A stretch of DNA of 64,000 nt from Mercurialis annua (Eukaryota; Streptophyta; Magnoliopsida; Malpighiales; Euphorbiaceae). The stretch spans positions 52,629,665-52,693,664 of the forward strand of contig NC_065570.1 in NCBI RefSeq assembly GCF_937616625.2, written 5' to 3'. Numbering within the stretch: position 1 is the stretch's first letter; every line of letters starts with the position of its first letter. The notes beneath the pieces were generated by a model. That model worked only from the letters and a program-made list of their open reading frames with translations. It was not told the origin of the DNA and made no database searches. Shown here in pieces: positions 2,426 to 49,632 of this stretch. A program made the position numbers and the translations under genes.

Positions 2426-3449
2426 GACATGAGTCACATTAGGAAATAAGAATATAAGATAAAGCTAATAATGGACTGGCTGTCTCCTAGTGTACGTAGT
2501 AAATACATAATAAAAGTTAGATTAGGATCAAATTTGATTAAGAAAAGAGATTAGGTTAAAATGATACAGGTGGAGATGAGGAGCAATTGGACATTGTTAT
2601 GTCTGGTAGTGAATTTTGGAAGGATATGAAGCTTTAGTTTGGTGAATGAGACAACAGAAGGAACAGACAATCTTAAAAGTTGTAGCATCTCAAAGACTTA
2701 AAACATAGTAGTTTTTTTGTTCGGACGATAAAAATATGGGACCTTTATTTTCTTGTTCGTTTACTTTTTTGTTTTTCCTTCGGTCTCTTGCTTTTTACAT
2801 ATGCATGATAAGACATTTCTTGTCCTCAAGTTGGATGATCTTGAAATCCATGTAGGCTTTGATGTGATATTAGTACTTCTAAATTTTTTTAATGTGTGCA
2901 GAGATCTAAGAATTAACATTTGAGAGGTTCAATAATGAAGCAATGAAGATTGAGGAGATGAACTATAATACGATAATATAGACACTTATGCAAGGACTAA
3001 AGGTTAGTATTATTGTTAATTTTTAGAGAATAGAAAAAAATAGCTTAATTGATCAATATATTCTCATACATACCAGCTATACAGTAATACATAGCAATGA
3101 AAAGAAAATCTAGCTAAAAAAAAAAAACAGACAACTATAACCCTTTCAATAGAATCAGTAATCATCATCTTGTAACAGAATTAGAAACTGCTACTCCGAC
3201 AGTTGCGACCTGCAAATAGGGGCACAAGAAAAGTCTGTGATCAAAGCTGAGTTGGCAGATTGCCAAGTCAGCATCAATAGAATACTTCCTCTGATAATTA
3301 ATACTCAATAAATTAATAATTCTAATAATTAATAAAATTGTAGGGAACCAATTTGAATATTGCGTCTTATAAAGTATTCAATAAATGAATAATTCTAATA
3401 ATTAATAAATTTTTAGTCCAACATGTATATTAATTATCAAAGGGTCGAC
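2426..3449. other. Spacer, GA3ox upstream region and possible decayed LTR
   Basis: No gene is visible. The right part (about 2,900-3,450) lies just past the C-terminal end of the copia polyprotein remnant, where its 3' LTR would be expected. It is AT-rich and has short direct repeats (AATAATTCTAATAATTAATAAA near 3,318 and 3,388). I could not define LTR ends. Confidence 0.3.
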
Positions 3450-4620
3450 AATATATCATATATGTCAAGCTTGGATATAGTCAAGTGAAAAACAACATGA
3501 GCAAGGACTTTTGTGAAACATTTTGCAAGTTGATTTGAGCTCGGAATAGGTAATAAATGAATAAGATTTGATTAAAGTTTCTCCCTGACCACATGGCAAT
3601 CAATCTCAGTATGCTTGATCGTTTCATGAAATAATGTATTCTTTGCAAGCTATCACAGTAAAGGGAAATGGTCAAACAAACAAGCTGATTAAGATCATCC
3701 AAAAGATTAAAAAGCCACTGTAATTCACCAGTAAGAGCTTCTAAGATGGGTCTCAAAAAAGTGGATTGCTTCTTTGATCTCCAGCGTATAAAAGAATCAC
3801 CAAATAGAACACAACTTTCAGTATTAGCTCTTCTTCTAGACTGGTGATTGCTTAATATGGAAAATGATATGCGGTGCTCGGAAAAATTGGTGTAGAGACT
3901 GGTGTAGAAGCAAGAAAGCTAGTGTCGTCCTACATCAAATGAAGAGTATACTTTCTTTGAAGTATATTAATTCCCTTAGCTGATCTAGCTACTTCAAGGC
4001 CCAAGAAATACTTGAATATACCCAAGTCTTTGATAGTGAAAATTTAATGAAGATAGTGCTTGATATCATCAATATCTTAAAGAGATTTGATGGCCAAGAT
4101 TACAGCGCCAACATATATCAAAAGAGCTATGGAGGTGGATCCAGTTCTTTTGGTCAGCTGATCAAATCCTTAAATAAGTAAGGGATAAGTAAGTTTTGAA
4201 TTCCATTGCCTGTTTGATTTAGTGAGAACATATAATGCAATTTAAAGACTTCTGTTGGAGAGTCTGGAAGCTTTGAATTTGCAATCTTACTTTGATGCTT
4301 TAGAATGAACGTTTCCAATAAACCTTGCTTATGGTCAATTAGATCTAGGAACTAAAAAACTAAGAAAATTGGGAGGTAAGTTCATGTATACTTCCATATG
4401 TAGATCCCCATTAAGGAAAGCATTTGTAATGTCATTAAGGAAAGCATTTGTAATGTCTAATTGGTGGAGATGCCAATTGTTCTTTGCGGAAAGAGATAAA
4501 AGAACTATGATGGTTGTCATCTTAGCCATATAGGGAAAAAGGAATCCATTCAATCCATACCTTGTATTAACAGAACATCGTCTTCTTCATCAGTCTCATC
4601 TTTATACCCGAATTCCGCAT
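3450..4620 (-). mobile_element. Degenerate Ty1/copia retrotransposon remnant (RT and RNase H)
   Basis: On the minus strand, pieces of a copia polyprotein appear in the correct order, broken by frameshifts and stops. The reverse-transcriptase motif WHLHQLDITNAFLNGDL is at about 4,480-4,390. The RNase H region follows: SCVLFGDSFIRWRSKKQST (about 3,830-3,750), then LYCDS, then IAMWSG where copia has IDCHVV (about 3,660-3,580). The C-terminal end resembles SSNQLAKCFTKVLA (about 3,540-3,500). Gag, protease and integrase are not recognisable. A 24-bp tandem duplication at 4,409-4,456 doubles the DITNAFLN part of the RT motif in frame. The element is inactive. Confidence 0.75.
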
Positions 4621-5254
4621 CGGGTTTGTGTTAGAAAAATTATATATTTTTCATGTTAGAAAAATATATGTCAAATGAACAATGCATTATGTCTTAATAT
4701 GACACATTAGGCATTAAGGTGTCAAATATACAGTATATATTCGACACTTTATGCATGAAGTGTCATGCATTTGAACATTTATTTGACACTTAATTATGGT
4801 CCAATTAAATTAATATAAATTATTATGATGTGAATTATTCTCATCCGTTGATTTGGTTATGTGATGGACGTATCAGATTGAATTGAAATGTCTATATATA
4901 ACATGAATTTTGGTCCTCTCTCTCTCTAACACAAAAACACTACTCTATTCCATTTAAACAAGTGTGATTAAGAAATTAGGGTTAAGGGAGAGAAATCAAT
5001 TTTCATTAATGGCTTCAAATAAAAATTATCTTGAAAATCCAGGTAAGCTTTCTATCAATATTTATTTATTGTATTATGAAATTATTTACTTTTGAAAATT
5101 CTTAGAGTTTACGTCAATGATGTCTTGTTAATCAAAATTTAACAAGTCGTATTATGAGGTTAATTATATATAGTTAAATTCTTTTTACGATGTTGGTACT
5201 TAAGTGGTCCGTTCATGACCCTCCAATCTTTCCTGACTCATTTCCTTGATAAAT
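4621..5254. other. AT-rich spacer with short palindromes
   Basis: Contains repeated GTTAGAAAAAT motifs (4,629 and 4,654), several TGTCAAAT/GACACTT half-palindromes and a CT run near 4,916-4,927. A short potential reading frame starts at 5,010 (MASNKNY) but is followed at once by a GTAAGC donor-like site. No gene can be supported. Confidence 0.25.
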
Positions 5255-5600
5255 GAAGAAGATGACCGGTTCAACCGGTTTAATAAATTTCAAAAAAATT
5301 GCACCGGTTTTTTACCGGTACAATCCGGTTCAACACCCGATTTTTTACCGGTTCAATCCGGTTCAACACCCGGATTTTTACCGGTTCAATCCGGTTCAAC
5401 ACCCGATTTTTTTACCGGTTCAATCCGGTTCAACACCCGGTTTTTTACCGGTTCAATCCGGTTCAACACCCGGTTTTTTACCTGTTCAATTCGATCCAAT
5501 CCGGCCAACCAAAAGATTCAGTTTTTTGTCTTTTCAGACCGGACCACTGACCGGTTTGCAGTTCAACCGGTCCGACCGGCCGGTCCGGTCCGGTTTTTAA
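5255..5600. repeat. CCGGTT-rich minisatellite, about five 33-bp units
   Basis: Between about 5,308 and 5,474 a unit of about 33 bp, built from ACCGGTTCAATCCGG plus TTCAACACCCG and a T run, is repeated about five times with few changes. It is flanked on both sides by further CCGGTT/AACCGG and GGTCCG motifs (5,262-5,285; 5,538-5,598). Because the period is close to a multiple of three and lacks stops, all forward frames stay open, which yields spurious 80-120 codon frames. Dense short motifs of this sort resemble the subterminal repeats of hAT-type transposons; that link is inference. Confidence 0.8.
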
Positions 5601-5696
5601 AACAATATTAGTTAGTGTTAAAAATGAATGTAAAAAGTGCAAAAATAATCCCTATAATTTTAGAATGTGTTTAATTATTATTTTTAATTTTTTAAA

Positions 5697-6700
5697 TGAC
5701 ACGTCAGCCAGGAGCGGAACTACCCTTAAGTTCGGGTAGGCTCGAGCTCTAGCTGCCGTTGGAAAGGATAAGGGCCGTGACCGGAGCATGTCAAAGTCGG
5801 AGGAAGCTTGAAGCTTATCAGCCATGGCTGAAAATAAACAGCAGGCAGGCTGTTGCCTGTTGGGGAAGAAGATGCTTTGTGCGTTTTAGGTTTTAAGACT
5901 ATTCGGTCCCTTTTTTTAGTTTAATGAAGGCCAACGACATGTCGTTTGGCTTCCATTAAACTTAAAAAAAAGGGTTTTGCTGTTTTAATGAAACAGCTTG
6001 GACAAAGCAATTGTCCCGTTCCTTTTTGCCAAAAAGTAACAGATGAGAATTAATAATTCTCATTAAACCCACACCATCAACCCAATCAATTTGTTTTTCA
6101 ATTCTTTACTAAACCTTTAATTAATTTCATCAATTCTTTCACTAATCGATCAATTTTTTTATCTATTCTCTAAATTTTTCATCCAATTTCCAACCTAATT
6201 CCTCTAATTTCAAATTCTCCTCCAAAATCAAACAACCTCCAATTTTGAGTAAGTATTTCCCTTTTTAAATTTTATTTATATAATTAATTTTTGGGTTAAT
6301 ATTATGTAACGACTATATTAACTTGATTTTTTAGGTTTCTGAACTTGATTTATTCATGAAAAATCGAAAAAGTGGATAGACTATACAACTAGTATTTTTA
6401 GTTATTGTCATTTTATTTTATTTTGTTAATAAACAATTGATGAATTTTGTAAAGTGGATATTTTGTGAATTTAAAAAAATAACTTGATGAAAACTAATCA
6501 AAATAATTTAATTTAAGTTATAGATATATTTGTTATTAAAACACCAAAAAATGTGAACTCTTGTGATAGAAAAGATAATTTGGGTATAACTTTTGGAGAA
6601 AAAAGAGCACGTATATATTGAATTTATATATCATTAATAGCATGTTCTTTAGCCCGGGCTGGAAACAATTCCTGATTCTGCCACTGACGTCAGCAGATGA
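5697..6700. mobile_element. Possible transposon remnant with inverted ACGTCAG ends
   Basis: ACGTCAGCCAGGAGCGGAACTA near 5,700 is mirrored by a minus-strand sequence beginning ACGTCAGTGGCAGAATCAGG near 6,690, giving weak terminal inverted repeats about 1 kb apart. The interior has a GC-richer start, a strong hairpin at 5,908-5,973 and otherwise AT-rich non-coding DNA. I see no target-site duplication and no transposase, so both the class and the limits are uncertain. Confidence 0.3.
5908..5973. repeat. Imperfect hairpin, arms about 30 bp
   Basis: The left arm runs CCTTTTTTTAGTTTAATG...CCAACGAC and the right arm is its near-exact complement ending ...TTAAACTTAAAAAAAAGG, with a 2-base turn at about 5,939-5,940. 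Only a few mismatches or bulges interrupt the stem. It could fold as RNA or extrude as a cruciform; function is unknown. Confidence 0.75.
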
Positions 6701-11697: not shown

Positions 11698-11751
11698 TAT
11701 TAGCAATTATCATCATCTCTACCATAGGAGTATTATTAGAATAATTATACA

Positions 11752-11908
11752 ACGCAACGGTTGCGCCACGTCATTCGTGCAACAAACCAATAAGGCGTTA
11801 GCCATGTGCAAATGTTTAATGATAAAAAAAATAAGTAATAAATAAAGATTCCCTATCGCAAATGATTATTGGCTTGTTGTAAAAATGACGTGGCACATCC
11901 GTTGTGTG
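11752..11908. mobile_element. Small MITE just upstream of TIFY8, carrying mirrored CACGTCA motifs
   Basis: The left arm CAACGGTTGCGCCACGTCAT (from 11,755) and the inverse of the right arm CAACGGATGTGCCACGTCAT match, and similarity continues through ACAA...CCAATAA, giving terminal repeats of about 42 bp around a 70-bp AT-rich core. The element lies about 55 bp upstream of the TIFY8 start codon, in its leader or promoter. Each arm holds an ACGT core (GCCACGTCA), a typical bZIP binding sequence. No target-site duplication was identified with confidence. Confidence 0.65.
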
Positions 11909-12461
11909 AGATAAACACTCGTATTATTATTACAATCATCATCAAGAATCTGCTTCATTTGTATAGTTGCTGTGTTGGTATTCAAGAAAATGGAAAGGAA
12001 AAAAGAGCACGAACTTCGGGGAGATGAAAAGAATAAAGCTTTTATGGAGTTGAAGAGAGAGATTGAGCATTAAATAGCAAAAGGTTGCAACTTTGGTTTC
12101 TTTTTTCTGTGTGTCTCAGCAGTTGGGTTGTTTTGTTCTAAAAGGGTATAAATGTTGTGCTTCACTGTTTCTATATATGCGTGCACCGGACACACAAGAT
12201 GTTTTGCCAATTCTTTTATTTTTCTATTCAACTTTTTAATTTTTAATTTTACCTTATTTAACCTCTCAATCTATATCTTTTTAACCATCTAATCTCCACT
12301 TTGAATATTTGTTTTTATTGGACTTCTCTTTTTTACTCTTATTTTATCATCTTAAAAAAATTATGAAAAATTCCTCTATTATTAATAGAGATAAAATATG
12401 AAAAAAAACATAAAAATACAAATGAAACTTTTAAAATAGAATGGAGGGAATAGTTAAATGG
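11909..12461. other. TIFY8 upstream region and Stowaway-like remnant
   Basis: Holds the presumed TIFY8 promoter. At about 12,300-12,446 AT-rich sequence ends with AGAATGGAGGGAATAG, which resembles the right end of a Stowaway MITE; the left end is not recognisable. Confidence 0.3.
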
Positions 12462-38484: not shown

Positions 38485-40973
38485 TTAACATGCAATTGAG
38501 GCAGCGAAAGGAGTTACCAAGACAGCGGTATTTCCTGTTACGGGTTTGAGACTGGCAGCGTACTCCAGTTGCCGCCATGCTTCCTTTCGCTTTTCGGACA
38601 TGGAGCTTAGGTTTTCTTGTTCTTCCTTGAATTGTTCAAGGCAGGAGACAAATAGTGGTTCATCCATCTCGGAGAACATTTTTCTGATATTCAGAGTTAA
38701 GTTGAGCACTGCTTGATTCCAATGGTTATGGGCATTTTTCTCTAAAGCTGGAAATATGACGGGCATAATCGCATGCCGGTTATGTGCAATTAAGTTGACA
38801 ATTTGGTCATTGTTCCACAAGAAAAGGGCTCTTTCCGCCACCTGACGCAAACAAGCAGTAAAGGTTTATGCCTCATAACTTATTTATGTACAAATAAAAC
38901 TCATAGTTCACAAGCTAAATAGAAATTTGAAACAACGCCTAACTTGTAGCTACATTCAAAGAATAACAGGAGGAATCGAAAGGCATTCCAAGCAGAAAGG
39001 GATATAACTAGTCAAAAGAATCGAAAGGAATGCTAACTGAAGTTTCCGAGTAAGTGTAGTGCCGTAGATTAAAAAAAATAAGAAGCATTGCTGCTACTCC
39101 ATAACACCAAAAAGTGTTAAAGCAAGCTCAGATGTCATGTTTTGAAAGTGCTTCTACTTAAACAGACAGCAAGAGAAAGAGCACAGCAGTTTTAATGCCA
39201 AACTCAGAACAATCCCATATCATAGAGATTTCATTAAAGCACCGTTGTGACATTTGCATTTGAATGTTAAAAATGATTCAGCTTGAGTTTGATTGATGTA
39301 AGAACACTCTCAGGAATTTCTAACACTACATTATGGACGGAAGACAAATAGGGCTTTTACCGAAGGATGAAAGATAAAAAAAGACGTGTTGCACAAAACA
39401 GGAGTTGACTGATACGGAAAACAGCGAATTATATAAAAGAATTTGTTATAAAAAAAAAAGTTTCAAATTTGTCTACAGAAATGAAAAATGAGCTCCCCGT
39501 GCAACATAGAAAAAAAAAGTATTTTAAGATTAATCTGTGCTCCTACTTCTACTAGTATAGTTCCACTACCTCATAGAAGTGCCCTCACACCAGAAAGAAG
39601 AATTTGAAATATGCAAAAGGAGAGGTCGCGAGCCTATGTTACACAAAAACATAATTTGAAACATGAAACGGTGGAATGATATTTTTTTACAGGAATAGGC
39701 TATAAACATAAACAGAGTTTCATCGGAAACATAGTACTTGACAATTTTCAGTACAACATAGTTCCTAGCAAACGAGGAAGGATAAAATAACAAGAACCAA
39801 GCAAAGGAACAAAACATAGCATATTCTGAGTACCTGAAAGTGGAAACTGTTAATGCAGCACCCAATCCGCCAGAACAACGGAACCATAATTTTCTGAAAT
39901 TCCACCATGTTAATAGCTTCCAAAATCTCTTCCAATTCACCAAGAAACATTACCTCCTTCTGGCTATTAGTTATCGGCCAGTATTTGAGCAATCCCTTTA
40001 TCACAATCGTAGCCAACTTTGGCTCCTTCTCAATAAACTGTGTCACACAATACGACAACTGTTGAAAATAAATTCCCACAGATTTTGGCTTATGGAGTGG
40101 TATCAAAACCCTCCATAAGAAAATCTTATGCTCCTCTTTCAATGGCAACGCAAAGCCACTAATAATACTCCCAAAAATCTCCAACAATTCCGCAATACCA
40201 TTATGCTTCTCGATCTCAAAAACAAACCTGTAAGATATATTGCTTATCGCCTTTCGAATAAAAGGCCTATGCACCATAAATTTCCCATAAACTCTATGCA
40301 ATATTGTCTTCAAACAGTCCCTTTCTCTTGGATCCTCGGATTCAAACAAGTCGAGCAATCTCAAAATAAATGAATGGTCTATGTACTTCTTGGCTACTTT
40401 AGCATCTAAGCAGGAAGAAGTAATAAATCTAAGCAACAAATCGTACACAATTTGCAAATGTGGCCAAGCAGGATCAAACATTGGCTCATCATTATCCTCA
40501 TTCTCACTCAAACTATTAGAATTAGTCCTATAATTCGGCGGAAAGATTCTAAATAAATTAACAGCACACATTCTACACATTGCTAAGATTGCAGGCTCAC
40601 TGAATTTCACAGACCCAGAAGCTACAAAATCTAAAAGCTCAAGCAAAGTTTGTTTCTTTACATCTTTTTCAAGTGTGTTCTTAGTTGGGTCAGTGAAATC
40701 AAACGTCACACAACACAAACTTACTTTGCTTACAAAAAGGTTCATTCTTTCTGCACTTGGAACATCCTTGAATGGAACCAAAGGCTCAATCCCAGCCACC
40801 ACACTGGCCGGAAACACAGCCGATGAGGTCCGCTTCGGACCATTACACTTAGCTCCAGAGGCAGGGAATAAGCTTGTGGATCTCTGAATACAAGGAGCCT
40901 CAATCCGAGTTGGCTCAGTTGAGTCAGGCTTTGATGATTTTCTAGGGAGTTTACTCAAGAATTGCTTCAACAT
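38485..40973 (-). CDS. PP2A regulatory subunit B' (B56 family)
   Basis: Two exons, 40973-39834 and 38841-38485, joined at a codon boundary across a 992-bp GT-AG intron; 498 residues. B' subunits form HEAT-like solenoids that bind the PP2A A/C core and select substrates in hormone, stress and cell-cycle signalling. The body is unmistakable: [113 protein letters not shown] and [10 protein letters not shown]. The N-terminus [15 protein letters not shown] is typical of one plant B' clade. Earlier in-frame sequence is open but lacks an ATG, so 40,973 is the start. The Ser/Pro-rich residues 15-65 are probably disordered. Which B' isoform it represents cannot be told. Confidence 0.95.
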
Positions 40974-41864
40974 GGTTAAAGATTCAAACTTCTCTTCTCC
41001 TGCTTTATTTCCAAAACAAAGAAACCCCAATGTAAAGAGGGTTAAACTAAAATTACAACAGCATCATAGCCATTAAAATGGTAGAATTAGGTCAATTAAC
41101 ATGAACCCTTTTCAAGTTTTGAAGATGGATCTAGAGAGAATGTGGTTAGATCCAAAGATTTGAGGGTTACTTTGAAGATATTTTTGCTGTTCTTGAACCA
41201 CATTTTATGGTAAAAGAAAGATGAGATCTTTAACCAAAAAACTTGAATTAAAAAACACCCAACAGAAAAATAATCAAAACCAGCAACTGGGTTTTCAGTT
41301 TTGAGCTCAACAGACAAAACCCACAATTTATAATTAACAAATTTGGAGTGAGAGAGACAAACATAGAAGAGAAAGATTCATGTAATTAATAATTATTACA
41401 AATAGAAAAAAAAAAGAGAATCTGAGGTTTAAGTTAAGGAAGAAAGAGATCTAATCTAAGGAAATAAATTATGGTTGTGTGTTATGATGATGTTAATGTT
41501 TCATCTTCCATCAAACTTAAATGAATCCAACGCAAAAAAACCTAAGAAATAATGGAACTCTGTTTTTTATTTTATAATATTTGCTTTATTATTTTTATTA
41601 CAATTATTTTTCTTTATTGTTTCTTTTGTTTCTCGGTTGATGAGAAAACTACGGCATTTTCTCGGAAAATGTAGGTATTTAAGAGCTAAAAAGATTAAAA
41701 AAGATTAACATAAAAAAGACTAAAAATATTTTTTTTAATTAATTAATCTATTACTTCTTTATACACCTGACGATGGACCGTACGGTATTGACTTGTATAA
41801 TTATTTTGTACCATTGGATTCCAATACCACAACAAATAAGCGTTTATTAATTGTTCTCCAACTG
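40974..41864. other. PP2A B' upstream region
   Basis: Probable leader and promoter of the B' gene, with GA/CT-rich stretches (41,345-41,460). The captured-gene transposon begins 892 bp upstream of the B' start codon. The 9-bp target duplication copy CTCCAACTG lies at 41,856-41,864. Confidence 0.4.
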
Positions 41865-42019
41865 GGGTCATTCTAGAGTACCACTGAAGTTTAGGTACCA
41901 CTGGTTATGATAACCGTTAGATCATTTTTTGATTAGTTTCCTCTGTTGATTATATTATCAGCTACTTATTCAGTGGGTGACATAATTAAATCACAGTCGT
42001 CTCTTATATGGTCAGCACA

Positions 42020-42690
42020 ATTATCTCTAACCCGTTCCACCACCAACAAGAGTTCCACCACCACCAACAGCTTCTCCACTTCCACCTCCTCCACTCCTCA
42101 CCCAACCACCACCACCACTGCAACCGCTCCCTCTCTTCTCTTCTCCCATCAGATCCTCACTTTCCCTTCTCCCTCTCTTCACTAGCCGACTCTGATCGTC
42201 CCGCCCTCTCATTCCGCTCTTCAATCGACGCTTCGTTTTTAGCTCTCTCAAACCCCGTTTCTGACCCACTCTTCCAATGGCTTTACGAAATGTTTTGTTG
42301 ATAGGATACCCATCCTCGTTTCATTTTCTTTCTTTTATCCTCTGTTTTTGGGTTTGTTTCCGCCGAGAATTCACTCCTCGGATTCTGCCTCAAGTCCTTC
42401 ACTTGTTAGGTTTGAAGCTGTTCTTCTTGCTTTTTACTTATCTGAAGCTAAATCCCGCAGCAGTCAGGCGGTTCTTGTGCAAATTCCTGATCTTTCTCAA
42501 CCTTTTCTTCATCATACTCCTCGTACTAAGGTTAATTCAACTTGTTGTCAAGTATTAGTCTGTCTGTAGGAGTTTTGTCTCCTCTTAAGCCTCAAATTAC
42601 TGATAAGTCGACTAAACGCCCCATCATTGTTGGTGTTATTCTTGATTGTTATTTTTTTGGGAGCTCGAAGAACTCTGTACCCATTTGCCA
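42020..42690 (+). pseudogene. Captured hyccin (FAM126)-like gene fragment
   Basis: Reading with frame changes, the strand gives PVSDPLFQWLYE, then RFEAVLLAFYLSEAKSRSS, QAVLVQIPDLSQP and VGVLSPLKPQITDKSTKRP followed by IIVGVILDCYF. This order matches plant hyccin-domain proteins, components of the plasma-membrane PI4K complex. The N-terminal part is Thr/His/Pro-rich. At least one frameshift after LYE (near 42,295) and a further break near 42,540 destroy the reading frame, and the C-terminal half is missing. A donor-like GTTAATTC follows PRTK. It is a pseudogene piece inside the Pack-MULE. The family call rests on remembered motifs and is moderately sure. Confidence 0.65.
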
Positions 42691-43068
42691 AATTCCTCAG
42701 TGTGCTCTCGTGGGTGCATGGGAAATGTCCATGTATATCGGTCAGTTAGAGTTCTATAACGGGGAAGCACCGGACCGTATGAATAGCTTATGAGGAAGTT
42801 CATATTGTGATGGTAAACAATACTTCTATGTCTCTGAGTAAAATACTATGGCTGTTTTAACCGGAATGTAGTAGCGAGTGAGGGAACTGACATATTTCTT
42901 GTGTCAGGTTTGGAAGGCATAGTTGGTATTAACTGATTTTTTGTTGCATAAGATGTTTACTTCATCTAAATTTGATGGGATTAGTTCGTTAGAAGTCGGT
43001 ACTGGAACTATTATGTATCTTTAGACTACATGATTAATTTATAGCAGAAGTTCTCAGTCACCGATTAC

Positions 43069-44572
43069 ATGCTTCGCGAACTCACAGTACTCGGAGAATT
43101 CAAGCCGTACGGCTTAATAGCTGAAGCTCTCGACAGCAAGCCTGAATATAACAATGTCGCCGCTGATAAGTACGACTACTTCCTTTTTGACCCCGAAATC
43201 GTCCGAGACCAATGCGAACTCAACGATTCTGATATTTCTGAGTCTCCTTTTGGTGATCAGTGTGATCACGAGCTCTTCATTCGAGGAAACACGTAAGTTA
43301 CTCTGTGTAGTCTGTATTGATTTGAATATTATTTAGTTTGCTTGAAATTTAGAATTATTATTTGAGGATTTCATTTTTATGATTTATTATTGTTGGGTGT
43401 AACAGGATAATATGGTCGATAGGCTCGCGAGTTTTCAAGAGATTCACGTCTCCCACTCCGGTTAAAATGGTAAGTGTCTTCTACGTTACTTGCGACATGT
43501 GCATTATGATTAATACTTTTTTAATTAATGATATTGAGATTCTATTATTAATTGCTATATTAGGCGTGCTGGTGTCGCCTGGGCGATACGTCTGAGGCTT
43601 TGCTATGCGTCTTGCAAATTGATTCTCTAACGGTATGCAGCATATCAGGCAAGCTTAGAAGGAAGAATTTGTTAATTATTGAGTTAAGTGATCAAAGTTG
43701 TTCTTATTTATTCTCCGGAGACTTGAATTTTTTCCAAATTATATATTGCAATAATGTGTTATTAGGGTAAATTACTGATAGTTTTTTTATATGTGTAATC
43801 AAAGTTTTAAATGTAGTGTTATGTTGGTTGTTTGGTATACCATTGTGTGCATGAACTTTCTTCATTTGGACATCAGCTAACTGAGAGCAGCAAATTCTGT
43901 GTGATGATCTTGTTATTTTTTGCCTGCTATGCTGTTTATTTTATTTGTATGTTCATTGAAGCAACGTAATTGTTGTTTTTTAATTCTGGAACTTAGTTCA
44001 ATTATTTTATTCGTCATTCGGTTTCATGGGGTTGTGCTTGATTCATTTCTGAACTTACCATGCAATCTTCTTAATTTTATTTCTTTTCTTTTTTAACTTT
44101 TACCAGGTGAATTAGTATCCATTCCCCTTCCCTGTACTATTACTTCGATGTGGCCTCTTCCATTTGGTTTGTTACTTCAGTCAGTAGCTGAAGGAGGTAC
44201 ATCAACCCAACCTACATTTTTATCAACAAGTCCTTTATCAGATACGCGTGATATTTTCCGCTCTCGGAAAGATATTAGTCAGAGTCCATAACATAATGTC
44301 GCTTTTATGGGTACAATTGATAATTTTAATCAAAGCAGAAACAGCTACATCTCGCATCTGATTCTGAAGGATTTGCTGGAAGAGCCGCATGTATTTATAT
44401 GTTCTGCATATCTGGCTTTTAGTAAATTTTAGAGTCAGAAACAATCCATGTTACTAAAACATTGTCAGTCTATTTATATTGAAGAAAGAGGAAAATTGAG
44501 CATAATGAAGGATTTTGATGAAAGAACAATTTGAACAAGTGATCAAGCTTCTCTAATGGCTTCATATAACAA
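43069..44572 (+). pseudogene. APC1: Captured N-terminal fragment of APC1 (anaphase-promoting complex subunit 1)
   Basis: Exons 43069-43292, 43406-43469, 43564-43648 and 44107 onwards. They give MLRELTVLGEFKPYGLIAEA, YFLFDPEIVRDQ, IIWSIGSRVFKRFTSPTPVK, CWCRLGDTSEALLCVLQID and GELVSIPLPCTITSMWPLPF, the N-terminal beta-propeller of the APC/C scaffold APC1. Only about 230 of some 1,700 residues are present. Breaks: intron 3 starts with GC rather than GT (TCAG|GCAAGC), and a stop codon follows DISQSP near 44,291. SHLILKDLLEEP is in another frame, and the conserved IWTSD carries TGA for Trp (MKDFDERTI-stop-TSD) near 44,529. Introns are retained, so it was copied from genomic DNA, not mRNA. Confidence 0.9.
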
Positions 44573-46434
44573 AGGTATCTTTTTTTTTGACTTGATACAT
44601 TACGTATTTTGTTTTCCTCACCTTGCAAAGTATAAAGTTATTCGGATGGTAATTATTGGTGGGATTCTGCTCCAATTTTTTGCAATAGAGAAATTTGTAA
44701 TGATTTAGATAATCTTTCAAGATATAGATTTGTCTAATGTGGGAAGGGTTTTTTTGATTTTATGTGGTTTGTTGGAATCACCTGTCGGCAGGGCTCTGAT
44801 ATTCTGCATTTTCTATTTTGGGTTCATAGTTGGTGCGTATTTGCTTGGTTTTGGACAGTGCATTGGTGGTTAAAGCTTGGACCTGGTTGCTGCAAATCTG
44901 ATTTGTCTCTTCATTATTGGTTCATGAAGTGTTTGTTGCTTTCAAAGAAGTCTTCTCAGATTTTGCTCCTTACATGTGTTTTTGGCTCTACAGTTCTTAT
45001 TGGTTCGTGACGTATTCTAGCTCGTCGAACAAAAGTTGAAATCGATATTTCTGAGAGTTAAATTAAACAAGTAAACCTTATCATTGTAAATTTTGAAAAG
45101 GTAGGTAGTTGAAGCCTTCTACTTGCTTGCAACTACATTTCTGTTGGGAATGTTTCATACAGCAAGACATATATAAATCATTTTTTTATTATTAAATAAT
45201 TAGTGAATCTTGGAGCAATGAGTTTTTTATATTTATTTTTAAAAATGTATTGAGAAAATAAAGCCATTTAATATAAAATAATATCAATATTTAAATTATA
45301 TGATATTGTTTAACTCGACCAAATAATCTTTTTTTGAAAATTTATATAAACCGTATTATTTTAGATTTTTTATTGAAAGAAGTAAACTACTAAATAGCTA
45401 AACAATTAAAAAAATGAAAAGAAGTATTAAAATAAAGCTAATTAAAATACCAAGAATTAATTATATGTAAAAGGATTAGTTTGTATTATTAATTCTCTGT
45501 CAAAGGTTTTTGTATTATCAACTTTGTAATTAATTCATAAAAAAAACTTAGTAATTAAAAGTAAGACCCACTATTATAAAACTAGGGGTGTAACCGAGTC
45601 GAGTCGAAACAAAATGCAAATTTTTGTACATTTCTACATGATTGACAGAGAGTGAAATGCCGAGATCAAACAATTAAATTTGTTAGCAAGCATTTGCAGA
45701 AGACTAAATTTTGAGATAGAAAATCAAAATGAAAAATTTGGAAGATAAAAAAACAAGTAAAATTAACTAGTAATTGAAGTCTGAAGTGGTAAAAACTAAA
45801 AACAAGATGCGGAAAACAACACTCAGAATGTCTTGAACCCCAATATGTCCCATACATCAATCTCTCACAGAACGAGCCTTTTGCCAATGCAATGCACCAA
45901 CATCCATGATCTTATGCTCCTACAAAAACAGAAGGATTAACCAGGAGTTAGAATTCGATCTTCCAAGACTCCAACATCGATTTTTATTATTTAATCACTC
46001 TCTATCTATCTAGCACCAAAACAGAAACGAATATGGGAGATGCCAAATTGATAAAAATAAAACAATAATAAGAATATGTTATAAATATAGAATTTGGAAG
46101 TTTCACAATCGCTTTTGAAAAAAAAAATCAAATACGAAAACGTAGCACCCAAGATTTTATTGTAGCATGACAAGCGCTGCAAGATCAATGTTGAGAAAGT
46201 TCATAGCATGACAAGCACCCTCTAATAAAACGACCCAGTAAAATAGAACATTAGAATAAGGAAGAAAGAAAAGCTCCAAATTATTTTAAGAAACCAGCAC
46301 AAACTAACCTTATGATTATTGACTGGTATTTTCCATATGCATATCATTATGACCAAAGAAACAAAATGAGGAAGAAGGACCTTTGAAAGATAACATACTG
46401 AAATGCACAATAAAGAATGCTAAGAATCTGTTAC
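44573..46434. other. Interior of the Pack-MULE without an identified gene
   Basis: Mostly AT-rich. A frame open for about 80 codons at 44,762-45,007 (plus) is Trp/Cys-rich; an alternative frame there reads IFCIFYFGFIVGAYLLGFGQ before a stop, possibly another captured membrane-protein exon. On the minus strand near 45,915-45,850 an acceptor-like TTTTTGTAG precedes EHKIMDVGALHWQKARSVRD and then a stop. I do not recognise either. A 13-base direct repeat TAGCATGACAAGC occurs at 46,163 and 46,204. Confidence 0.35.
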
Positions 46435-46585
46435 CTTTCATCATCTTATTGTAAGCAGTGTCTGCTATGGCATAAATATGAGGATTGTCCATAAGTTTCT
46501 GTTTGTAAGCCTCGATAATTTTACTTCCAAAGAGTGGCACAGGTTTAAAGGGATGGACAGGAATCAATACAGGCCCTGCTTTACT
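46435..46585 (-). pseudogene. Captured single exon of a myosin motor domain (class VIII-like)
   Basis: A 151-nt exon bounded by intact splice sites (acceptor ATGCAG, donor AAAG|GTAAC) encodes SKAGPVLIPVHPFKPVPLFG followed by SKIIEAYKQ and NPHIYAIADTAYNKMMK. This is the start of the myosin motor head just before the P-loop exon; class VIII (ATM1-like) is the closest style because of KAGPVL and AYNxMM. The P-loop GESGAGKTE exon is absent, so only an isolated fragment was captured. It lies antisense to the APC1 and sHSP fragments. Confidence 0.85.
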
Positions 46586-46909
46586 CTGCATGATTAAACA
46601 CGAGAACGGTTGAGAGGAGTGTAAAGAGATTTATAGCTTACTAACAAGAGCAATAGTAATCTATTGTACATACATAAATAATATCCTCAGAATACCGGTG
46701 CTTAAGATTGTAATGAACTCTATGTCAATGGAACCAAATTATTTGAAAGCAAAATTTGCCAATTTTTGCACATCAGAGGGTTGGCAAACATCACATGCTA
46801 TTCCAAATCCTAAAACCAACAGCAACTCTATACCCGTAAAACAATTACAATAACCTCATAAGCAACCTAACAAACGACATAATTCAATTTCAACAAAAAT
46901 AAAGCAAAC

Positions 46910-47010
46910 CTTACGAATGAGGCAGTCCAAGACTGAACTCTTGAGTTCGTCAGTAGTAATACTAGTAGCTCCTGCTGTATAAACTGCTGCTACCACTATT
47001 TGGCTTCTCC
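46910..47010 (-). pseudogene. Unidentified captured exon
   Basis: On the minus strand a frame reads RRSQIVVAAVYTAGATSITT followed by DELKSSVLDCLIRK and ends at a good donor (CGTAAG|GTTTGC). The composition looks protein-coding and different from the flanks. It is not part of a myosin as far as I can tell, and I cannot name the family. It may be a fifth donor gene or a further exon of the same donor as the neighbouring fragment. Confidence 0.35.
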
Positions 47011-47256
47011 TCAAACGTTGCTCTTGTCACGAACTTACCAAATTTTGCTGAAAAATACATTTTTCAAATTAGTATAAATTCTTTCAAACTAAAAAGGAAA
47101 AGCGAAGAAAAAAAATAGAAGAAATGAAAACCTAGGGTTTTGATTTCGTAAAAATACAAAGCTCCTCCACCGTCACCTGCATCACAACGAAGAAGAAAAC
47201 ACAATATAATCAACATCTACTAATAACACCAGTTTTAAATTTTACTACAGAGAAAA

Positions 47257-47565
47257 ATGGCAATGATTCCAAGTTTTTTGGGCAATGCACGAAGCAGTAT
47301 CTTCTATCCTTTCTCATCTTTTGACTTTTCAGATCCATTCAAAGGCTTTCCTTCCTCTTCTTCGCTAATGTCCGGTGAAAATTCGGCCTTCGTTAACAAC
47401 CGCGTCGACCGGAAGGAGACACTGAAGCCCATGTTTTCAAAGCTGAACTTCCAAGGCTCAAAAAAGAGGAAGTGAAAGTGGAGGTTGAGGATGATAGAGT
47501 TCTTTAAATCAGCGGAGAAAGGAGTGTTAAGAAAGAAGACAAGAATGATAAGTGGCAATTAGAAA
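47257..47565 (+). pseudogene. Captured class I small heat-shock protein fragment (HSP17-18 type)
   Basis: Starts MAMIPSFLGNARSSIFYPFS, then SDPFKGFPSSSS and [16 protein letters not shown]. These are the N-terminal arm and the start of the alpha-crystallin domain of cytosolic class I sHSPs. A one-base deletion after KET shifts the frame; in the shifted frame the family sequence resumes as [20 protein letters not shown] and DDRVL. A stop then replaces the usual Gln before ISGERSVKKEDKND. The last third, including the GVL beta-strand, is missing. The gene is broken and only about 100 of some 155 residues are represented. No heat-shock elements are obvious upstream. Confidence 0.9.
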
Positions 47566-47696
47566 TGGAAACCTAGGGCAGAAAAATAAAATTAACTGGA
47601 AAAAAATAAAATTACCTGCTATAGCAGGTTAAAACAGGTGAATGACACAAGTGGTACCACAGCCTAAGTGGTACCGTATAACTAGCCCTCCAACTG

Positions 47697-48716: not shown

Positions 48717-49632
48717 GGCAAAAGATATAAAAAAAACTCTCACAACTTTTTCAAAAGTACAAATCAGTCTTTAAATTTTTTTGGACACAAGTACACCCAT
48801 ATAGTTTTTAAATTGAACAAAAAAACCTCCGTCCATTCAAGTTAGAAACCAACGTTAATTGCAGACATGTCACTCATAAATTTATAGAAAAAAAGTTCTA
48901 AAATAACCTTAATGTTTAAAATAATTATTAATTTATATTTATAAAATTTCTAGCATTATTTCAATCAGTCTTTAAATTTCTAGCATTATTATTTAACTTT
49001 TTTTTATTAAAATCAATAAAAATATAATTAAACCAATCAACCAATTAAACATGACCATCAAAATCCAATTAATAATATAAAAATTCAATTAAACCTATTA
49101 AAACTCAATTAAATCTAATTAAATAAATCAAAAAATCTAATTAAACTAATTAAAATATAATAAAACAAATGAAATCTAATTATATTTTAATTTAAAAATT
49201 GAACCAGCGTCACTCGATCCTCCCAGAAAAAACGACATCCGGCACGCTGGATGAACACTTTTTTCTTTTAATTAAAAAAATAAAAAAAGAAACGACATCG
49301 GAGGTCTTTTTCTTTAATTTTTTTATTTTATTTAATTAAAAAGAAATAAGTGTCAATTGGGTCTCTAATTCAAATTGTTTATCAATAAAAGACCTTTGAA
49401 TGATTAAACTGAGATATATTGCAATTATTAAGGATATTTATGAATCTTTTTTTAAAGGACATTTGACGTCGTTAACTAACATATTTAACAGAAAGGTTTA
49501 TTTGTTCAACAAACAATTTTAAAGAAATTTTTGTTCAATTTGAAAACTGCAAGGATTTAATTATGCCCAAAAAAATTTAATGTCTGATTTGTATTTTTTA
49601 AAAAATTACGAGAATTTTTTGTAACTTTTGCC
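48717..49632. mobile_element. Mutator-type MITE with perfect 9-bp target duplication
   Basis: The element begins GGCAAAAG and ends CTTTTGCC and is flanked by TTGAATTTA on both sides (48,708-48,716 and 49,633-49,641). Inverted similarity continues inward: ACAAATCAGTCTTTAAATTT against the inverse of AAATTTAATGTCTGATTTGT, then TTTTCAAATTGAACAAAAA-type words. It is about 916 bp, AT-rich, and has no transposase. Confidence 0.88.

Follow-up and report, generated by a model that had tools for sequence, protein, structure and literature searches.

Within a window of 64,000 nucleotides from Mercurialis annua (Euphorbiaceae; contig NC_065570.1, positions 52,629,665 to 52,693,664), we characterized a 5,823-bp transposable element at 41865-47687, composed for the most part of segments that match host loci elsewhere in the genome. 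Positions given without a contig are those of the window. The element is bracketed by a perfect 9-bp target-site duplication, CTCCAACTG, at 41856-41864 and 47688-47696, the coordinates and duplication given in an earlier note on this DNA being exact. That note had described a Pack-MULE, i.e. a Mutator-like element (MULE) carrying pieces of host genes.

Terminal repeats and captured segments

The first bases of the element are GGG and its last GCC, the left end starting with GGGTCATTCTAGAGTACCACTGAAGTTTAGGTACCACT and the opposite strand of the right end with GGCTAGTTATACGGTACCACTTAGGCTGTGGTACCACT. The left terminal repeat (41865-41906, + strand) has the form GG-N11-GTACCACT-N9-GTACCACT and is paired with a right terminal repeat on the - strand (47646-47687). 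As the earlier note had claimed, these are related inverted ends with a doubled motif, present at both termini 13 bases in from each end (41878-41902, +; 47650-47674, -). They are identical at 29 of 42 positions, 16 of which fall within the two 8-base motifs. With up to three mismatches allowed, the doubled motif has only these two sites in the whole window, against a mean of 0.11 sites in 100 shuffles, one of which reached two. Sixty dinucleotide-shuffled windows contained no exact 9-bp repeat pair with an end match of at least 29/42, four 9-bp pairs getting to 26/42. Just interior to the right end lies a perfect 16-bp palindrome, ACCTGCTATAGCAGGT (47614-47629).

Searches against the element's own genome (451 Mb) consisted, for the sources, of two genome searches and a realignment, the second search scoring 40 of 64 candidates. 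They placed 14 segments at 14 best-matching places on seven contigs (C1, C2, C3, C4, C52, C54 and C55), covering 5,080 of the 5,823 bp (87%). The hyccin, APC1, myosin and small heat-shock protein (sHSP) fragments on which the claim of "four or more donors" rested were confirmed, the count itself being too low.

From the left, the first segment (42042-42655, +) is a hyccin fragment spanning about residues 5-245, with three frameshifts, two stops and several deletions. Its parent (C4:20486733-20487457) encodes the Mercurialis annua hyccin protein (100% over 322 residues), the top database protein for the piece also comes from this species, and the portion aligned by blastn (42124-42655) differs from the parent by 72 substitutions in 532. 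A fragment of an NRT1/PTR family (NPF) transporter follows (42684-42801, +), matching a 274-aa open NPF frame at C2:41338340 and constituting a fifth donor, absent from the earlier note. Next to it, 42888-43057 matches C52:10375855-10376027, with no gene named for it. The APC1 fragment (43053-44622, +; parent C55:42082279-42083806) runs from the start codon to residue 256, and its top database protein is again from Mercurialis annua (93% over 96% of the query). Two stretches of the parental locus, of 75 and 42 residues, are 100% identical to the APC1 of the species, and other exons match it at 68-97% where introns disturb the alignment. The match between element and parent is continuous through the introns, in disagreement with the intronless, retrotransposon-mediated mode of capture; since the introns were retained, this piece was copied from DNA.

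The central segments are shorter. The stretch 44621-44963 matches C3:74875007-74875356, adjoining a frame that we take to be RNase H-like, and a 45-bp segment (44958-45002) matches C4:25435597-25435641 at 98%. Beyond it, 45172-45579 (C1:6910081-6910510) holds no recognised gene, while 45602-45873 corresponds to C1:67001319-67001590, adjoining a WD40 frame. Between these last two lies TAGGGGTGTAACCGAGTCGAG (45583-45603), which occurs once in the window and presumably resembles a hAT-type end. The next segment (45866-46168, -; C2:39725876-39726142) contains a terminal exon without a Pfam match, presumably similar to a pheophorbide a oxygenase-type C-terminus. It is followed by a myosin motor-domain exon (46440-46595) together with adjoining intron sequence (46177-46719, -; parent C2:11651381-11651945), a short-chain dehydrogenase exon piece (46721-46806, -; C2:55543745-55543830), a segment at 46803-46891 (C1:48630496-48630586) and exon sequence of an unnamed gene (46932-47150, -; C54:7672109-7672319). 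Finally, a frameshifted class I sHSP fragment (47149-47557, +) starts before the start codon and matches a cluster of six places at C54:47.07-47.12 Mb.

The pieces therefore lie in both orientations, as previously noted: hyccin, NPF, APC1 and sHSP on the + strand, the recognised exons within 45866-47150 on the - strand. The hyccin, APC1 and sHSP pieces all start at or close to the start codon. Pfam searches on the trimmed pieces identified hyccin (1e-9), ANAPC1 (1.9e-24), myosin head (2e-10) and HSP20 (2.3e-7), and the same four were recovered from unbiased six-frame chunks. Searches on whole frames detected ANAPC1 and HSP20 only, missing hyccin, myosin and NPF. On the side of the sources, the POT/NPF donor frame scored 1.9e-48, myosin head 8.2e-22 and HSP20 2.9e-32, and the short-chain dehydrogenase donor frame 7.1e-5, under the family cut-off. 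The NPF piece reaches 1.9e-4 in a related element, L013, and when solved structures were searched up to E 10, its top five matches, none better than E 0.18, were all POT-type proteins. Comparison of fragments with parent genes thus placed six Pfam-named families and eight further segments without a named gene. The exons to which the earlier note gave no name have matches elsewhere in the genome: Pfam, solved structures and protein searches returned nothing for them, and the genome search placed them at C54:7.67 Mb (46932-47150) and C2:39.7 Mb (45866-46168). No Rfam family matched the window at gathering level. We also considered a predicted APC1-myosin protein of Senna tora (P0042) as the same junction, and rejected it for its different myosin part and unlike junction.

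A multicopy family with exchangeable right arms

The first 100 bp of the element have at least 27 genomic matches and the last 100 bp at least 24, the window included. Among the 21 other loci that were read (20 picked by their left end, including L012, plus L030), 16 bear an exact 9-bp duplication, no two of which are identical; 12 emerged at first comparison (L022 among them), two by scanning 108 offsets and two later. This recurrence agrees with the earlier Pack-MULE interpretation. Elements with both ends and a duplication range from 817 to 15,227 bp. Long terminal inverted repeats (TIRs) are absent from the window element and from 17 other copies, whose left and right ends agree at 22-31 of 42 positions (22 in a copy whose boundary was set 4 bases out) and at 27-31 in 15 of the 17. 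All 18 elements compared read GGCT at the right end, and 17 of them read GGGT at the left, the exception being the copy with the misplaced boundary; given this consistency, the unlike ends are a family trait and not the outcome of decay.

L009 (C1:57.686 Mb) is a further complete copy: it aligns across the whole element bar one 96-bp stretch, with 37 substitutions in 3,825 columns and 14 in 1,906 (51/5,731 in all), and carries its own duplication, ATTATTTTA. The patchwork was thus complete before its last move and transposed as a unit. At an assumed substitution rate of 7e-9 per site per year, the two copies would have split about 0.6 million years ago. The sources, dispersed over seven contigs, do not adjoin, and outside the window the whole series of fragments was found in L009 alone, where it is again bounded by the element's ends.

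Two longer relatives share a part of the patchwork. L012 (with L029; C3:16495870-16511096, 15,227 bp, exact duplication CACTTAATG) holds the hyccin, NPF and APC1 pieces and has element positions 1-1731 in common with the window at 86.5%, plus a further APC1 stretch at 83%. L013 (9,461 bp, exact duplication TAAAGACTA) shares positions 1-1356 at 85.3%. Over the terminal, hyccin, NPF and next segments both are 89-94% identical to the window, and APC1 exon 1 is 93% identical in L012 and 77% in L013, whose copy breaks off there. From these alignments, the hyccin, NPF, C52 and APC1 pieces were probably joined before the lineages of the window element, L012 and L013 split. By contrast with this shared left part, positions 2541-5717 were matched only in L009, L012 (50 bp) and L030 (36 columns), in a comparison covering all loci read except the right parts of L014 and L023.

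L012 and L013 are 97-98% identical over five stretches totalling 5,769 columns, their other parts differing or missing in L013. In its final 738 bp, L013 resembles L011 at 95.7%, whereas over 138 bp at its end the similarity to L012 drops to 79%. Accordingly, the left-end tree joins L012 and L013 (95/95), whereas right-end data reject this pair (p-AU 4e-4), which was chosen after the alignments had been seen. L013 has therefore exchanged its right arm. An assembly artefact or a later recombination, forming no growth step, is an unlikely origin for this arrangement: L013 is the sole clear case of arm exchange among the loci read, yet its exact duplication spans all 9,461 bp, so that the whole chimera looks transposed. 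For the window element itself, an exchange of the right arm is suggested by its terminal sequences: its left end groups with L009-L013 and L020 (93/95), left-end data rejecting a grouping with L015-L017, L027 and L030 (p 4e-8), and its right end is nearest L030 and L015-L017.

Other observations concern members and neighbours of the family. L012, and L013 where Pfam was run, also contain a hexapeptide frame (2.1e-11), which we take to be serine-acetyltransferase-like, and a TPR_27 frame (1e-7). L021, L024 and L026 are family members of about 4.5-4.8 kb; L024 contains the beginning of a KNOX1 homeobox gene (7.1e-6), and L021 a frame similar by eye. L022 (C52:47.889 and 47.893 Mb) was considered as two copies moved together and rejected, being a segmental duplication of 3,588 bp at 99.9%; the duplicated unit stops at an element's right end, and the first copy is without its right target duplication. 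At C3:57415472-57416133, some 0.55 kb beyond the left end of L014 and in opposite orientation, is a stretch 92% identical to the APC1 piece; this is perhaps a neighbouring element and possible fusion partner. In the window, a PP2A B56 subunit gene occupies 39765-41030 (- strand; Pfam 2.5e-36), the element lying 892 bp upstream of its first ATG (40973). Two further candidate elements were observed, one of 916 bp at 48717-49632, 1 kb from the patchwork element (9-bp duplication TTGAATTTA, ends GGCAAAAG...), and one of 182 bp at 11739-11920 (duplication GTATTATTA, ends alike at 46/70).

Probable stepwise growth of the patchwork

Taken together, these features argue, with a probability that we put at roughly 0.85, for a non-autonomous Pack-MULE of a multicopy family that grew stepwise by template switching and by arm exchange between copies. 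A MULE-type transposase made elsewhere would act in trans by recognising the doubled GTACCACT sites, and transposition would leave the 9-bp duplications observed. Host sequences would be copied directly from DNA, together with introns as in APC1, over several rounds, possibly when repair or replication switches template at short homologies. Right arms would probably be swapped when neighbouring copies fuse, a route put forward for other Pack-TYPE elements (PMC8903248), and the finished patchwork would move as one unit, as L009 illustrates.

Capture in several rounds is supported by the unequal decay of the pieces. Of the residues conserved in both the Mercurialis annua and the castor bean parents, 29 of 151 are altered in the hyccin piece and 14 of 204 in the APC1 piece (Fisher p 5e-4; 2e-4 to 3e-3 in six variants of masking and third species), a picture that a diverged second hyccin gene acting as donor would also give. 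The hyccin piece of L018 was considered as a possible separate capture: among 28 changes common to the window, L012 and L013, 14 are also found in L018 and 12 are not, in an alignment that includes poor ends. Across the 14 segments, substitution relative to the source is 0.13-0.17 close to the ends and decreases to 0.02-0.09 towards the middle (Spearman -0.76, n=14, p 0.0017, permutation p 0.0011; -0.71, p 0.007 without the 45-bp segment). Constraint is unequal among sources and some of these are paralogues, so that we regard this gradient as support and not as proof.

Assembly of all pieces in a single catastrophic repair event, followed only by decay, is improbable. The many short abutting pieces do resemble template-switch repair, and 6 of the 13 junctions show overlaps of 2-8 bp, four of them (2, 6, 4 and 2 bp) identical in the two sources and two (5 and 8 bp) containing a single mismatch. 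A single event is nevertheless contradicted by the stronger decay of hyccin than of APC1, by the 0.02-0.17 span of divergence from the sources, and by L012 and L013 having the left part in common but not most of the right.

Several points weigh against stepwise growth of a Pack-MULE as we propose it. On the side of the sources, best matches need not be true sources: the sHSP match is a cluster of six loci, 46004-46152 matches 11 further places at 71-83%, the scored candidates were 40 out of 64, and the NPF piece alone scores weakly in Pfam (0.0034). Concerning the order of capture, the gradient was looked for post hoc and loses significance when coding donors (n=8, p 0.10) and the remaining segments (n=6, p 0.16) are taken separately, 7 of 13 junctions hold 1-169 bp matched to no source, and the overlaps may be fortuitous. 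As for the family, five of the 21 loci (L014, L015, L023, L025 and L028) have no exact duplication, L014 and L023 having no right end inside the 9.7 kb fetched, and right-end data do not reject the window element with L010, L011 and L013 (p-AU 0.07). End-to-end similarity also appears low compared with a typical MULE, and no intact transposase is tied to these ends, the sole hint being a SWIM zinc-finger frame in L012 (Pfam 3.1e-6), which could be part of a nested element.

Classification and comparison with known systems

The MULE label is based on duplication length and capture habit. The 9-bp duplications of the window and 16 of 21 other loci fall within the 8-11 bp reported for MULEs, for which TIRs of 14-500 bp and non-TIR forms are both described (PMC6446971), and further copies with the same ends and host fragments copied as DNA (14 segments, APC1 with introns) agree with a Pack-MULE. 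A Pfam search of 36 six-frame chunks at E 0.1, a scan of limited sensitivity, found no transposase in the element, consistent within that limit with a non-autonomous status. Another cut-and-paste superfamily producing 9-bp duplications stands a slim chance: the short unlike ends and the lack of a linked transposase would fit it, but duplication length, the reported grape non-TIR MULEs with 9-bp duplications (PMC2528002) and the SWIM-finger frame of L012 speak for a MULE.

The exact, differing duplications, the related inverted ends at fixed positions and the GGG...GCC termini leave next to no room for a rolling-circle origin. A Helitron, whose ends are TC...CTRR with neither target-site duplication nor inverted ends, having gathered these genes with the 9-bp duplication arising by chance is scarcely credible, even though rolling-circle elements of this type take up host sequences on a large scale (PMC13317346).

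A limited search of open-licence literature returned no report of this element family and nothing for Mercurialis with Mutator-like; for Pack-MULE with Euphorbiaceae it gave only matches unrelated by title, and a text search for GGTACCACT showed no transposon title among the matches listed. We regard the element as a new variant of Pack-MULE in view of how many sources it matches, its unlike ends and its modular growth. More tentatively, and at somewhat less than even odds, it may represent an undescribed MULE family of modular patchworks, with a conserved left arm, interior gain of host DNA over millions of years, right-arm exchange, and doubled GTACCACT motifs pairing unlike ends, in which 5-15 kb patchworks from a dozen or more sources are still transposing. 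Should this hold, such pairing of unlike ends would ease arm exchange. How DNA transposons capture host genes is still an open question, a 2026 review using the words "undiscovered mechanism" (PMC13317346). Here, one genome contains the patchwork, its second copy, part-sharing relatives and loci that match 87% of its length, making junctions, capture order and arm exchange directly readable.

Pack-MULEs of rice commonly have more than one donor. Those of tomato and Arabidopsis are alike in their 9-11 bp duplications (PMC3310237), and Pack-TYPE elements with several loci are known, longer ones holding more (PMC8903248); the present element differs in its 14 matched segments within 5.8 kb and in short unlike ends instead of long TIRs. 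Non-TIR MULEs of Arabidopsis and grape (Mutavine-6) likewise have weakly similar ends and clear 9-nt duplications (PMC2528002), whereas both ends of the present element share a doubled 8-bp motif at a fixed position. Fused neighbouring Pack-TYPE insertions offer a parallel, in that the outermost ends of neighbours come to bound a new element with younger DNA inside (PMC8903248); here the family is MULE-like, L012 and L013 are alike in body and not in right arm, and intact neighbours in tandem were not seen among the loci read. Finally, the gap-filling or FoSTeST Pack-TIRs of animals are alike in the template switching suggested here and in short breakpoint homology (PMC8277862), the element described here being of a plant and drawing on many more sources per element.

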